Shown: piece after piece, positions 22,935-34,824 of the stretch
Position numbering within the stretch: the first letter of the stretch is position 1
Layout: every line of letters begins with the position of its first letter
Assembly: GCA_000961765.1 (NCBI GenBank)
Contig: LADT01000053.1
Span: forward strand, 186,001-250,000
Length of the DNA stretch: 64,000 nt
Reading direction: 5' to 3'
DNA from: Clostridiaceae bacterium BRH_c20a
GTDB lineage: Bacteria; Bacillota; Peptococcia; Peptococcales; BICA1-8
Translations under genes and position numbers: made by a program
The notes under the pieces: model-generated
The model's input: the letters and a program-made list of their open reading frames with translations, nothing else
What the model was told of the DNA's origin: nothing
The model's database searches: none

Positions 22935-23395
22935 TTACTCATAGGTCTAGCTCGAGCATCTGACAATTACTGCTGGGTAACATTGAGCGTCTGACAATAC
23001 TCAGGGGTTGAGATGCTGCGTCTGCTTTAATTTGAGGTCAGTTTGCTGCGTCTGCTCTACTTATAGGTCTAGCTGACGGGTCTGACAATACTTCTGGGTG
23101 AACATCTTGCGTCTGGTAAAAGATCGTGCCCTGTGTCCAGTGTTCTGTGACCAGTGACCAGTGCTGGAATAAGGTTAAGGTTAAGATCAGACTAAGATTC
23201 CGCTTCGCTAGACTAAGTACCGGACACCGAGCACCGGTCCCCGATTCCCGACCCAACACTCTATCATGCAATGCCCGTGTCAGACGCAAAAAACTGGCTT
23301 CTTGGTATTGTCAGACGCGTAAGTTAGACCTATCAGTAAATGTCAGACGCAATAATCTAGCAGTATAAGTATTATCAGACTAACAAGCTAGACCC
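22935..23395. repeat. CAGACGC composite element E2 (fixA-fixB gap)
   Basis: Left arm: about six units in reverse orientation (GCGTCTGAC... at roughly 22957, 22986, 23017, 23047, 23078 and 23109, 30-31 bp apart). Core: heptamers (GTGTCCA/GTGACCA), GGTTAAGG hexamers, TCCGCTTCGCTAG, heptamers ACCGAGC/ACCGGAC, then CCCGACCCAACACTC and GCAATGCCCGTG. Right arm: about four forward units (CAGACGCAA..., from about 23272). The outermost right unit contains the fixA stop codon. It occupies the whole 478-bp gap; no gene is seen. Confidence 0.9.
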
Positions 23396-24214
23396 TTAAG
23401 AATTAGGGATTACTTCCAAAGGAATCAACTTATCCACCAAAATCTTAACAGCTGCTTCGGGGTTTTCCTCTCCACCGGGGATTATTTCTCCTCCGCCCCG
23501 TTCGGGGGGTGCAAAAATATTGCGAACCATGGTGGGCGAGCCTTTCAAGCCTAGCTTATCCACCTCAAAGTCTATTTTAGTTTTATCCCAGATAGTACAT
23601 TGATAGCGGACTGCTCTAATCATATTATCCAGACTGGCATATCTTAACTCATTAATATCCTTCACAACTGTTAGTAAAGCGGGTAATTGGGTTTGAGTTA
23701 ATTCTTTACCATTTTTGACCTTGCGATAAACCTTTATATTTTTACCCTTAATATCTAATTCTGTTATTTCCATAACATATGTTAATTGGGGTAAATTCAT
23801 CCTACATGCTATTCCGGGACCAACCTGTGCTGTGTCACCATCAATAGCCTGTTTGCCGCAAAGAATTAAATCTACCCCTCCCTCTTCATGGAGCTTTTCT
23901 ATTGCCTTTGTTAAAGCATAACTAGTTGCCAAGGTGTCTGCCCCGGCAAATGCTCTATCACTTAAAAGAATAGCTTGATCGGCACCATAACCAACCGCTT
24001 TTTTTAATGCTTCAATTGCCATCGATGGCCCCATAGATATTACTGTAACTTTTCCTCCATATTTGTCTTTTAACTGTAAAGCTGCCTCTAGAGCATGAAT
24101 ATCATAGGGATTAATAATAGCAGGTACACCTTCTCTAACTAAGGTATTAGTCTCTGGGTCAATTTTAACTTCTGTGGTATCAGGAACTTGTTTGAGACAA
24201 ACAACATAGTGCAT
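23396..24214 (-). CDS. fixA: FixA / EtfB beta subunit
   Basis: 272 aa from the ATG of MHYVVCLKQVPDTTEVKID, with GAAGGAGGG ahead; a longer frame exists but its extra 52 residues are not protein-like. The AMP/FAD-binding ETF beta motifs ALKKAVGYGADQAILLSD and DLILCGKQAIDGDTAQVGPGIA are present. It pairs with FixB to form the flavoprotein that carries the bifurcating FAD. Its upstream region contains the DnaA-box cluster. It is first in the operon order fixA-B-C-X. Confidence 0.95.
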   Translation of the reverse strand: MHYVVCLKQVPDTTEVKIDPETNTLVREGVPAIINPYDIHALEAALQLKDKYGGKVTVISMGPSMAIEALKKAVGYGADQAILLSDRAFAGADTLATSYALTKAIEKLHEEGGVDLILCGKQAIDGDTAQVGPGIACRMNLPQLTYVMEITELDIKGKNIKVYRKVKNGKELTQTQLPALLTVVKDINELRYASLDNMIRAVRYQCTIWDKTKIDFEVDKLGLKGSPTMVRNIFAPPERGGGEIIPGGEENPEAAVKILVDKLIPLEVIPNS

Positions 24215-24327
24215 GTTCTTCCCTCCTTCAGTAAATTTTTCTTCAACTAGGTTTATTTTATGTAGTTTGTAGGTATATTTATTTTTACCCAACATACCTA
24301 TAAATAAAACAGTATGCAAAAACTCAC

Positions 24328-24498
24328 CTATCCACAGTATCCACAAATTTATACACAGATTAAAGGTCAAAAACCTTAGCTTTTAACCCATTTTTGCACA
24401 TTATCCACAGATAAATGTGCAAATTGTTGTGAAAATAATTCCACATAGCTAATCCCTGATTTTCCGGGTTATACACAGACTTATCCACATTATCCACA
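24328..24498 (+). promoter_or_regulatory. Cluster of seven DnaA boxes upstream of fixA
   Basis: Five boxes match TTATNCACA exactly (24349 TTATACACA, 24401 TTATCCACA, 24469 TTATACACA, 24481 and 24490 TTATCCACA) and two differ in the first base or bases (24328 CTATCCACA, 24337 GTATCCACA). All have the same orientation; two pairs abut at 9-bp spacing. The box at 24401 lies inside an inverted repeat TTTGCACAT...ATGTGCAAA (24393-24423). No dnaA or dnaN is nearby, so this looks like a DnaA-binding cluster that regulates or titrates, not a proven origin. The surrounding 24215-24768 has no other gene. Confidence 0.85.
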
Positions 24499-24582
24499 GG
24501 AACAAGTCCACAAAACACCCGTTCCTTTTTTTTGTTAAGCACTTTACTCATCAGCACAATACGACAAAATTAGTACTTGACA

Positions 24583-24618
24583 GAAAAAATTCAGGGGCCT
24601 TAGTCCCTGAATTTTTTT
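24583..24618 (-). terminator. Bidirectional terminator hairpin
   Basis: AAAAAATTCAGGGGCC TTA GTCCCTGAATTTTTTT with T-runs on both strands. On the minus strand it would stop transcription from the PHP phosphatase gene after it has crossed the spo0E-like gene in antisense. Confidence 0.8.
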
Positions 24619-24768: not shown

Positions 24769-24930
24769 TTGAAGGATAGTACCCAATTATTAGTTGAAAT
24801 AGAAGCTCTACGAAAGCAATTGCATAAAGTTATTGAACTATCAGGAGGTGATTTGCTTTCTGATGATGTACTTGAATTAAGTAAAAAGCTTGATAATCTT
24901 CTGGTTAAATATTTAAAGGAGAAGCAATAG
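24769..24930 (+). CDS. Spo0E-like aspartyl-phosphate phosphatase
   Basis: 53 aa, too short for routine calling. The sequence IEALRKQLHKVIELS...DDVLELSKKLDNLLVKY matches the two-helix Spo0E family and its S-x-x-LD signature (here SKKLD). Such proteins dephosphorylate Spo0A~P and so delay sporulation. The TTG at 24769 is used with GGAG nine bases before; another TTG three codons earlier touches the ribosome site. It is divergent from fixA and convergent with the PHP phosphatase gene, leaving only 25 bp between their stops. Confidence 0.85.
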   Translation: MKDSTQLLVEIEALRKQLHKVIELSGGDLLSDDVLELSKKLDNLLVKYLKEKQ

Positions 24931-24955: not shown

Positions 24956-25753
24956 TTAAAAAGAAATAATCCTAGGTTCCCCTTTGGTATATGTGCAGAT
25001 ACCCGGGAACCCCAAATCTTTAATAATTTCCAGCCCTCGTTCTAAATCTTGACCCAACTGTCGTAAATGATGGGCATCAGACCCTATGGTAATAATTTTT
25101 CCACCTAGTTCCTTGTACCATTTAATTATTTCTAAAGTAGGCAAAGGCTCTCCTAACCCCTGACTAAAACCCGATGTGTTTAGCTCAATGCCCCGGTACC
25201 TTTTAATGACGGCTTTTAATATTTCCCGCACAACTTCTTCATAATCTAACGCCTTAAACTTCTTAAAAGTCCTGGGAACATAGCGTTTCAAAACATCCAA
25301 ATGCCCCAGTGAATGGAAATTCCCTTTTTGAGCCGTTGCCAGTACTTCTTCAAAATACTGCAGATAAACCTCCCGCTCATCTGCATCATCTTCATAATCT
25401 CTGTGCAGCAGCTGATCCCCTACAAAATGTACTGAGCCCAAGAAAAAATCAAAGGTTTTATCTTCCCAAAAAACTGCATGTTCCTGCAGATATAAATGGG
25501 GCTCGCCCAGCTCTAAACCTTTTTTTATTGCCAATTTTTTCCCAAACCTTTCCCGGCACTCTTCAATTTCCAGGGAATATCTCTCATAATTAAAATAACC
25601 CAACCCAGCATCCTCTGAATTTAAGTCAAAGTGCTCAGTAAAAACTATTTCTTTGATACCTATTTCAACTGCCTTCTGACAGTAATCCATCATCTTGGCT
25701 CTACTGTCAAAAGAATTATCAGTATGGACGTGGTAGTCGACTAAATAGTGCAT
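24956..25753 (-). CDS. PHP-domain histidinol-phosphatase family protein
   Basis: 265 aa. PHP metal-binding motifs are visible: DYHVHTDNS near the start, EIVFTEHFD, GSVHFVGD, HSLGHLDVLKRY and ITIGSDAHHL near the end, matching the HisJ type that hydrolyses histidinol phosphate in histidine synthesis. ATG start with GGAGG. No other his genes are in the window, so a different phosphoester substrate is possible. Confidence 0.87.
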   Translation of the reverse strand: MHYLVDYHVHTDNSFDSRAKMMDYCQKAVEIGIKEIVFTEHFDLNSEDAGLGYFNYERYSLEIEECRERFGKKLAIKKGLELGEPHLYLQEHAVFWEDKTFDFFLGSVHFVGDQLLHRDYEDDADEREVYLQYFEEVLATAQKGNFHSLGHLDVLKRYVPRTFKKFKALDYEEVVREILKAVIKRYRGIELNTSGFSQGLGEPLPTLEIIKWYKELGGKIITIGSDAHHLRQLGQDLERGLEIIKDLGFPGICTYTKGEPRIISF

Positions 25754-25779: not shown

Positions 25780-26323
25780 TCTATCTATCGGGACGGATAT
25801 ACTTCTCCGTCTAGCTTTTGCGTCTGACAATTACTCCTGAGTAACTTATCGGGTCAGACATACTTCTCCGCTTAGCTATTGCGTCTGACATTTACTAATG
25901 GGTCTAGCTTACGAGTCTGACACGAACATTAATAGTTAAATTTTGTGGTTGGACAATACTTATACTGTTAGGTATTGCGTCTGACACAAGCGTTATTGGC
26001 TGCTGGATGAGCTCATTGGACAGGTTGTGGCTGAGGCTAAGTCTGAGTAAAATCTTAACCTCAACCTAGCGGGAGCGGAACCTTAACCTTATTCCAACAC
26101 TGGTCACCGAGTACTGAACACTGGACACGATTTTCACCAGACGCATAATCTTCACCCAGAAGTATTGTCAGACGCAATAAAATGTCCCCAAAGTAATTGT
26201 CAGACGCATAAGCTAGACCCATAAGTAAAGCAGACGCAAGATGTTCACCCAGTAGTAATCGTCAGACGCAAGATGTTCACCCAGCAGTAATTGTCAGACG
26301 CAATAAAATTACTCCAAAGTAAA
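25780..26323. repeat. CAGACGC composite element E3
   Basis: Left arm of reverse units (GCGTCTGACAATTACTCC..., GCGTCTGACATTTAC..., AGTCTGACACGAAC...) from 25810 to about 25985. Core with CTAAGTCTGAGTAAAATC, AACCTCAACCTAGCGG, CACTGGTCACCGAGTACTG heptamers. Right arm of five forward units, 30-32 bp each, from about 26148 (CAGACGCATAATCTTCACCC, CAGACGCAATAAAATGTCCC, CAGACGCATAAGCTAGACCC, then two of CAGACGCAAGATGTTCACCC). A last one reaches the tsaD stop codon. It fills the 570-bp gap; no gene seen. Confidence 0.92.
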
Positions 26324-27343
26324 TTAGCTGACCCCAAATTTAAGATTCGGTACAGCATTTAAATTCAATTCGGCAAATTCTCCCCTTAATGCTTTGTAAT
26401 GGGCTGCACAGCCGATCATGGCGGCATTATCAGTACAATATTTTATGGGTGGGTAAACCAATCTTATCCCTAGCTTACTACAACGGTCACTTAAATCTTC
26501 CCTTAAAGCCTTGTTAGCTGCTACACCGCCAGCTAATAAAATAGTTTTCACTTGAGCTTCCTTAGCAGCCCGTAGAGTTTTCTCTGACAAAACTTCAATA
26601 ACAGCCTCCTGGAAGCTAGCGGCTACATCATTAATATTAATAGCTTCCTTTTTCATTTCCTGCTTATTCAAATAATTCAAAACAGCTGATTTCAAGCCAC
26701 TGAAGCTAAAATCATAGCTTCCGTCTTCAAGCCAAGACCGAGGTAGCTTAATTGCAGTATTACTACCTTCTCTAGCACATTCCTCTATCTTAGGGCCTCC
26801 GGGATAACCCAGACCAAGAGCCCTGGCTACCTTGTCAAAGGCCTCTCCTGCTGCATCATCTCTGGTTTGACCCAAAAATTGATACTTTCCATAGTCGGTA
26901 ATTTCTACTAAGGTAGTATGCCCTCCGGAAACAATTAAACAAACCACGGGAAACTCTATGTCATTGTGTGTTAAGAAATTGGCATAGACATGACCTTCAA
27001 TATGGTGCACACCAATTAACGGTTTTTGCGCGGCAAAAGCCATAGCTTTTGCTGTAGCAACACCCACTAAAAGAGCCCCCACCAAACCAGGACCATAGGT
27101 TACCGCGAAGTGGGTAATTTCACTGAAGGTTAAATTAGCCTGTTCCAGAGCTTCTTCAATACTTATATTTATTAACTCCAGATGCTTACGTGATGCTACT
27201 TCAGGTACAACACCCCCGAACTTCTGGTGTGTTGAGATTTGAGAAGCTACCACCTCGGCCAAGACCTCTGTTCCGTTTTTCACTACAGCCACAGCTGTTT
27301 CATCACAGCTTGTCTCTACTGCTAAGATTATTGTATCAGTCAA
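26324..27343 (-). CDS. tsaD: tRNA N6-adenosine threonylcarbamoyltransferase TsaD
   Basis: 339 aa. Transfers the threonylcarbamoyl group to A37 of ANN-reading tRNAs. Signatures: [29 protein letters not shown] and the metal-binding HHIEGH motif, plus [14 protein letters not shown] at 27343, eight bases after GAGGGG, is preferred to an overlapping GTG at 27352. Its partners TsaB and TsaE are encoded just upstream in the order tsaE-tsaB-rimI-tsaD. The last residues (GVS) and stop lie at the edge of a repeat array. Confidence 0.97.
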
Positions 27344-27494
27344 GATAATCACCCCTCTTTACGCTACTACGTCTGACCGTGTGCCCGTGGGCGCGAAGGG
27401 CTTACCGCGGTTACCGTTCTTGTGGTTTAACCTACTGTTTAACAACTAGCAAAACCACAAGAACCGTCCCTACGGCTGCACCCTACGGCTGCAA

Positions 27495-34429: not shown

Positions 34430-34824
34430 GAATATATTAGGTCTGCTCTACTTAAGGGTGAACATATTGCGTCTGACAATACTCATGGGTTGAGATGTTG
34501 CGTCTGCTTTACTTCTGGGTCTAGCTTATGCGTCTGACAATACTTCTGGGCGAATATTGTGCGTCTGATAAAACCCGTGCCCGGTGACCAGTGCTCAGTG
34601 TCCAAAAAACAAGGTTAAGGTTAGACTAAGATTCCGCTACGCTAGATTAAGATTTCGCTTCGCTAGATTAAGTACCGAGCACCGATCCCCGACCCAACAC
34701 TATATCATTCAATGCCCGTGTCAGACGCAATAAATTGGCTACCTGGTAAATCAGACGCATTAAGTTGACCACAAAGTAGTTGTCAGATGCAATAGCTAGA
34801 CCCGTGAGTATGTCGACCCGTGAG
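34430..34824. repeat. CAGACGC composite element E5
   Basis: Left arm of about five reverse units from 34440 (GGTCTGCTCTAC, GCGTCTGACAATACTC, GCGTCTGCTTTACTTC, GCGTCTGACAATACTTC, GCGTCTGATAAAAC). Core in the same order as E2: ACCAGTG CTCAGTG heptamers, AAGGTTAAGGTTAG, TCCGCTACGCTAG and TTTCGCTTCGCTAG, ACCGAGCACCGATCCCCGACC, CAACACTATATC, CAATGCCCGTG. Right arm of four forward units, the outermost next to the asparaginase stop codon. Confidence 0.92.

Follow-up and report, generated by a model that had tools for sequence, protein, structure and literature searches.

The window examined here is a 64,000-nucleotide stretch of the genome of Clostridiaceae bacterium BRH_c20a (contig 81, positions 186001-250000, in an assembly of 4.51 Mb and 92 contigs), and the element of interest within it is a compact array of DnaA boxes. 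In transcription order along the minus strand, the locus comprises tsaE, tsaB, a GNAT acetyltransferase gene (rimI-like), tsaD, a PHP-domain gene, the array, fixA-fixB-fixC and a ferredoxin-like gene, with groES further along; fixB, fixC and the ferredoxin-like gene were named from sequence and not from a domain scan. The array, its parts and its neighbours are as follows:

24328-24498, plus strand: array of eight DnaA boxes, none with more than one mismatch, start-to-start steps of 9-12-43-9-68-12-9 bp
24328-24357, plus strand: far triplet (boxes 24328, 24337 and 24349), steps of 9 and 12
24392-24423, no strand: box pair 24392/24401 within the inverted repeat TTTGCACATT/AATGTGCAAA
24437-24445, plus strand: degenerate site AATTCCACA, three mismatches, the ninth site, at the -32 position expected from the spacing template described below
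24469-24498, plus strand: core triplet TTATACACAGACTTATCCACATTATCCACA, steps of 12 and 9, the array end closest to tsaD
23396-24214, minus strand: fixA (electron transfer flavoprotein subunit; PF01012), starting 114 bp from the array and its neighbour in some relatives only
24583-24618, no strand: terminator-like hairpin separating the array from the Spo0E-like and PHP genes, also found in two relatives (L013 and L020)
24769-24930, plus strand: gene for a small Spo0E-like protein of 53 residues with a TTG start (PF09388, E=5.9e-13), between the array and the PHP gene
24956-25753, minus strand: PHP-domain gene (PF02811), between tsaD and the array
26324-27352, minus strand: tsaD (gcp; PF00814), 1.8 kb from the array and the gene linked to it across the phylum

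Five of the boxes are exact copies of TTATNCACA (24349, 24401, 24469, 24481 and 24490) and three carry one mismatch (CTATCCACA at 24328, GTATCCACA at 24337 and TTTTGCACA at 24392), all on the plus strand. Three pairs directly adjoin each other (24328/24337, 24392/24401 and 24481/24490), and the inverted repeat has its arms at 24393-24402 and 24414-24423. A preliminary description of this DNA had given exactly these array coordinates, a single box orientation, five perfect boxes and an inverted repeat around one box, all of which hold, but it counted two near-perfect boxes and two adjoining pairs where there are three of each.

Pattern searches returned 174 exact copies of TTATNCACA in the whole genome, i.e., 0.0066 expected per 171 bp, and the Poisson probability of five or more in such an interval is ~1e-13, or ~3e-9 over all such intervals in the genome. 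Likewise, TATNCACA-N0-30-TATNCACA occurs at six places genome-wide, four of them in the array and the other two on contigs 58 (L004) and 85 (L009). The array is by far the densest DnaA-box place in the genome, and a caveat of the preliminary description, namely that such box density might be common here, is excluded. It is also a cluster of several boxes lying close together outside oriC, with dnaA on another contig. A chance accumulation of boxes, for which the AT-rich setting and nothing more speaks, was rejected on the genome-wide counts, and the conservation of position, strand and spacing described below leaves it a negligible likelihood.

Conservation of the cluster upstream of fixA, which the preliminary description had put forward as a check, was found in close relatives but not in distant ones. 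In two genomes from other genera of the same family (L013 and L020, with FixA 86% and 85% identical), fixA is preceded by a dense box cluster, and both the hairpin and the Spo0E-like gene are kept; in an alignment of these two loci with the window, the doublet TGTGGATAATGTGGATAA and other boxes are invariant, and the core of the degenerate site at 24437 is unchanged across the three genera. fixA is likewise the neighbour of the array at L055 and L057. No box cluster was found, however, at the more distant fixA homologues L014-L019. One possible reading of the locus is that array-bound DnaA controls transcription of fixA or of the divergent Spo0E-like gene and thereby couples electron transfer or sporulation to the cell cycle, which would fit both the placement of the array between the hairpin and the start of fixA and the four other loci at which fixA adjoins it. 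DnaA is also known to regulate some Bacillus subtilis genes, among them sda (PMC4447404).

In B. subtilis, one of eight strong DnaA-binding regions lies downstream of gcp (as tsaD was formerly called) and ydiF (PMC4447404), and the tsaD neighbourhoods of relatives were therefore examined. With or without fixA, the tsaD gene is followed at 0-2.7 kb by a strong cluster in the four family members with a tsaD contig and in most members of the class. This includes a family member (L042) in which none of fixA, the PHP gene or spo0E adjoins tsaD, and in which the array, its box order unchanged, begins ~0.1 kb from tsaD. Carboxydothermus islandicus, a relative that can be cultured, also carries an array at tsaD. 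Across ~150 genomes compared overall, the broadest survey covered 108 genomes from 66 families, sampled evenly from a phylum that we take to be Bacillota in the broad sense and not centred on close relatives, with mechanical gene calls. In these genomes, 187 exact boxes fall within the 500 bp past the tsaD stop codon, and 167 of these are on the opposite strand to tsaD; every remaining 500-bp bin from -5 to +10 kb around tsaD holds 0-14. Permuted box patterns reached at most 16 in the tsaD bin in a fresh set of 200, from which the true pattern, drawn once by chance, was set aside; one pattern in an earlier control set reached 41. A strong cluster was present in the tsaD region of 59 of the 108 genomes, at the tsaD 3' side in all but one of these (58/59), and 72 genomes passed a looser threshold. 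Among 12 single-contig genomes, 10 have a close box doublet at the tsaD 3' end, where it is one of the few doublets of the genome. Outside the phylum, tsaD-side boxes were found in none of 29 genomes of another phylum and in none of an earlier set of six genomes.

These comparisons establish that the array belongs to tsaD and do not support a link to fixA as its conserved partner. No FixA was detected close to tsaD in any of the 108 survey genomes, the genes next after the tsaD-side cluster fall into 23 homology groups, and the boxes are not conserved with fixA across genomes. A fixA-specific operator as the main role was rejected because the fixA homologues L014-L019 lack a cluster and tsaD loci without fixA carry one, and a DnaA-controlled fixA promoter, which the preliminary description had suggested, accordingly falls away as a conserved role. 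A conserved link to Spo0E of the kind of an Sda-like checkpoint, although attractive, was also rejected: apart from the window, L013 and L020 (whose contigs are those of L040 and L041) are the only loci with a clear Spo0E-like gene, and L082 gave a weak match. Given in addition that no consensus sigma-70 promoter was found at the locus, transcriptional control appears improbable as the function of the array, although a local effect of DnaA on fixA or spo0E is possible as an addition. The best explanation is that fixA and spo0E are later neighbours of an ancient element; in the family of the window, genes are inserted between tsaD and an array that otherwise occupies the same place as the B. 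subtilis cluster, the 3' side of gcp/tsaD. Separately, one genome (G057, locus L230) carries an element with tsaD-type spacing 20 kb from tsaD (offsets -132, -120, -77, -32, 0, 12 and 21), next to a 5-formyltetrahydrofolate cyclo-ligase-like gene and integrase-like open reading frames, and was perhaps parted from tsaD by insertion.

Conservation extends to the distances between boxes. Spacing steps were read from the box lists of 69 strong clusters, and the fullest pattern, from tsaD outward, is 9-12-31-36-9-43-12-9. The window matches all nine positions of this template, counting the degenerate AATTCCACA at 24437, the core of which is invariant in the family; as the template was drawn from a collection that includes the window, this agreement describes the window and does not amount to a blind prediction. 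Pairs of boxes at distances of 9, 21 and 12 bp are found in 38, 36 and 33 of the 66 families, respectively; over the range of 8-130 bp, the median distance is found in two families. Compared with 150 permutations, the actual order of steps scores higher than every one, with a small margin over the best of them, which is a near-shift of the true order. When 50 tsaD-linked loci were anchored on the core triplet, box scores peaked at -32, -77/-78 and -120, offsets that had not been used in selection and that are present in the window. At a template score of at least 22 of 36, 12 genomes from 10 families are retained, and few genomes carry all nine sites. The core triplet is uncommon within genomes: with up to three mismatches, it is found in 16 of 17 genomes, mostly in one or two copies, while the reversed control is found in none of the 17. 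At its third site, TTATCAACA and TTATTAACA, neither of them a canonical box, are the commonest sequences (23 of the 50 tsaD-linked loci). The core triplet recurs at one other locus, flanked on one side by comF-like or fliS/fliT genes and on the other by hpf, secA or an amino-acid transporter gene. This copy is present both in the genome of the window (L004/L235, contig 58, 33251-33280) and at L226, L227, L228, L229, L231 and L234, and is possibly a second conserved DnaA element.

A minor or former replication origin, as also raised in the preliminary description, would be consistent with the box density and the one-way orientation of the boxes. GC skew around the array is, however, negative on both sides and keeps one sign across ~120 kb, with no change at the site, and an active origin was rejected because of this uniform skew, the very analysis that the preliminary description had proposed. 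The sole strong DnaA-domain match in the genome lies on another contig (C23), where dnaA has box-rich flanks, and in ten single-contig genomes the tsaD clusters are 0.29-1.07 Mb from dnaA, or 10-36% of the genome length. Together with the description of the B. subtilis clusters as inhibitory (PMC11019786), this makes any origin function, past or present, highly improbable.

The best explanation for the array is instead that it represents the counterpart, by position, of the gcp/ydiF DnaA-box cluster in B. subtilis, apparently inherited across much of the phylum. In B. subtilis this region (region 4) contains 10 sites and binds DnaA strongly and cooperatively, with a Kd of 0.15 uM for ATP-DnaA and 0.33 for ADP-DnaA, and at the lowest concentration ATP-DnaA recovered 16-fold more of its DNA (PMC4447404). 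Joint deletion of six extra-origin clusters leads to early initiation, which is partly relieved by one cluster (PMC13220808, PMC5295017). The likeness to the window array is one of position at the 3' side of tsaD and of the number of sites (about ten), and unlike in B. subtilis the PHP and spo0E genes part tsaD from the array in the window, with fixA next. In three genomes of family f31, the gene after the cluster is ABC-ATPase-like and convergent to tsaD, which resembles the B. subtilis arrangement.

Because of this counterpart, with its high affinity, its preference for ATP-DnaA and the early initiation that follows removal of six clusters, we consider that the array is probably an ancient DnaA-sequestering element at the tsaD 3' side that limits initiation. 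DnaA, most likely in its ATP form, would bind the boxes cooperatively; the element, lying at some distance from the origin, would be doubled by replication, and the extra sites would lower the amount of free initiator and thus help to prevent early or repeated initiation at oriC. Each of these steps, from binding to the control of initiation, extends the behaviour of B. subtilis by analogy to the organism of the window, whose own genome encodes a complete DnaA and has oriC-side boxes that share the array consensus. Among the options listed in the preliminary description, a DnaA titration site with B. subtilis precedent is in this way the best supported. Three observations weigh against sequestration: about one-third of the sampled genomes have no clear cluster by tsaD; family f2, from the same order, mostly lacks the tsaD cluster; and the conserved spacing exceeds what a passive sink needs, which suggests a defined complex.

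This last point leads to a different reading, in which the constant box distances would give rise to a specific DnaA complex able to alter the nucleotide or oligomer state of the protein, as datA (by ATP hydrolysis) and DARS (by reactivation, an option also raised in the preliminary description) do; a partner protein might take part. The conserved strand, the recurrence of the 9-, 21- and 12-bp distances, the rank of the true step order and the independent peaks at -32, -77/-78 and -120 would all suit such a scaffold, and conserved spacing of DnaA sites is a property that the array has in common with the Escherichia coli elements. Like the array, datA is a non-coding DnaA-box cluster outside oriC; it limits initiation, its function depends on site spacing and its distance to oriC is conserved within the species (PMC4585315). 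It lies in another gene context, depends on an IHF site and acts by stimulating ATP hydrolysis. DARS1 and DARS2 are likewise non-coding DnaA-box elements with conserved sites and spacing (PMC4585315), although they reactivate DnaA. However, B. subtilis is described as having no datA, DARS or IHF (PMC13220808), no partner site was identified at the array, few genomes have all nine sites, and the spacing could also arise if DnaA packs cooperatively on a sink. We thus regard an active scaffold as rather unlikely, albeit the most credible of the alternatives. The same doubtful standing applies to its broader form, in which the nine-site element by tsaD (9-12-31-36-9-43-12-9) would be a phylum-wide dedicated DnaA-regulating nucleoprotein, a functional analogue of datA or DARS among bacteria whose model species reportedly has neither, with a shorter core copy in the comF/hpf/fliS region. 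In yet another phylum, a DnaA-box cluster near oriC of Streptomyces coelicolor has been reported, as cited in PMC4585315, to repress untimely initiation.

Other sequence features of the locus lie outside the array. Between the array and fixA, GGTATGTTGGGTAAAAATAAATATACC (24276-24302), with GGTAT/ATACC ends, is largely kept in L013 and L020 and is a possible operator. In the stretch from the hairpin to the array, TGTCAAGTACTAATTTTGTCG...GAGTAAAGTGCTTAACAAAA (minus strand, 24540-24580) is kept in the same two genomes and is not evident in L042. Intergenic GTCAGACGCAA repeats are interspersed in the window between 14941 and 46518 (24 copies with at most one mismatch vs 0.44 expected), mainly at 23000-23400, 25780-26320 and 34467-34792.

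Most of what is known about DnaA-box clusters outside the origin comes from B. subtilis, in which individual clusters seem to be dispensable. No prior report of such a breadth of conservation or of a spacing code was found in the titles, abstracts and passages of the open-licence literature, a body of text that includes only part of the primary B. subtilis papers, and both may tentatively be considered new. That much of the phylum has a cluster by one particular gene, in a constant strand orientation and with recurring box distances, implies that control of initiation via these sites has been under selection for a long time, and a defined 171-bp element with its spacing code allows a direct choice between a sink and an active DnaA-regulating complex.
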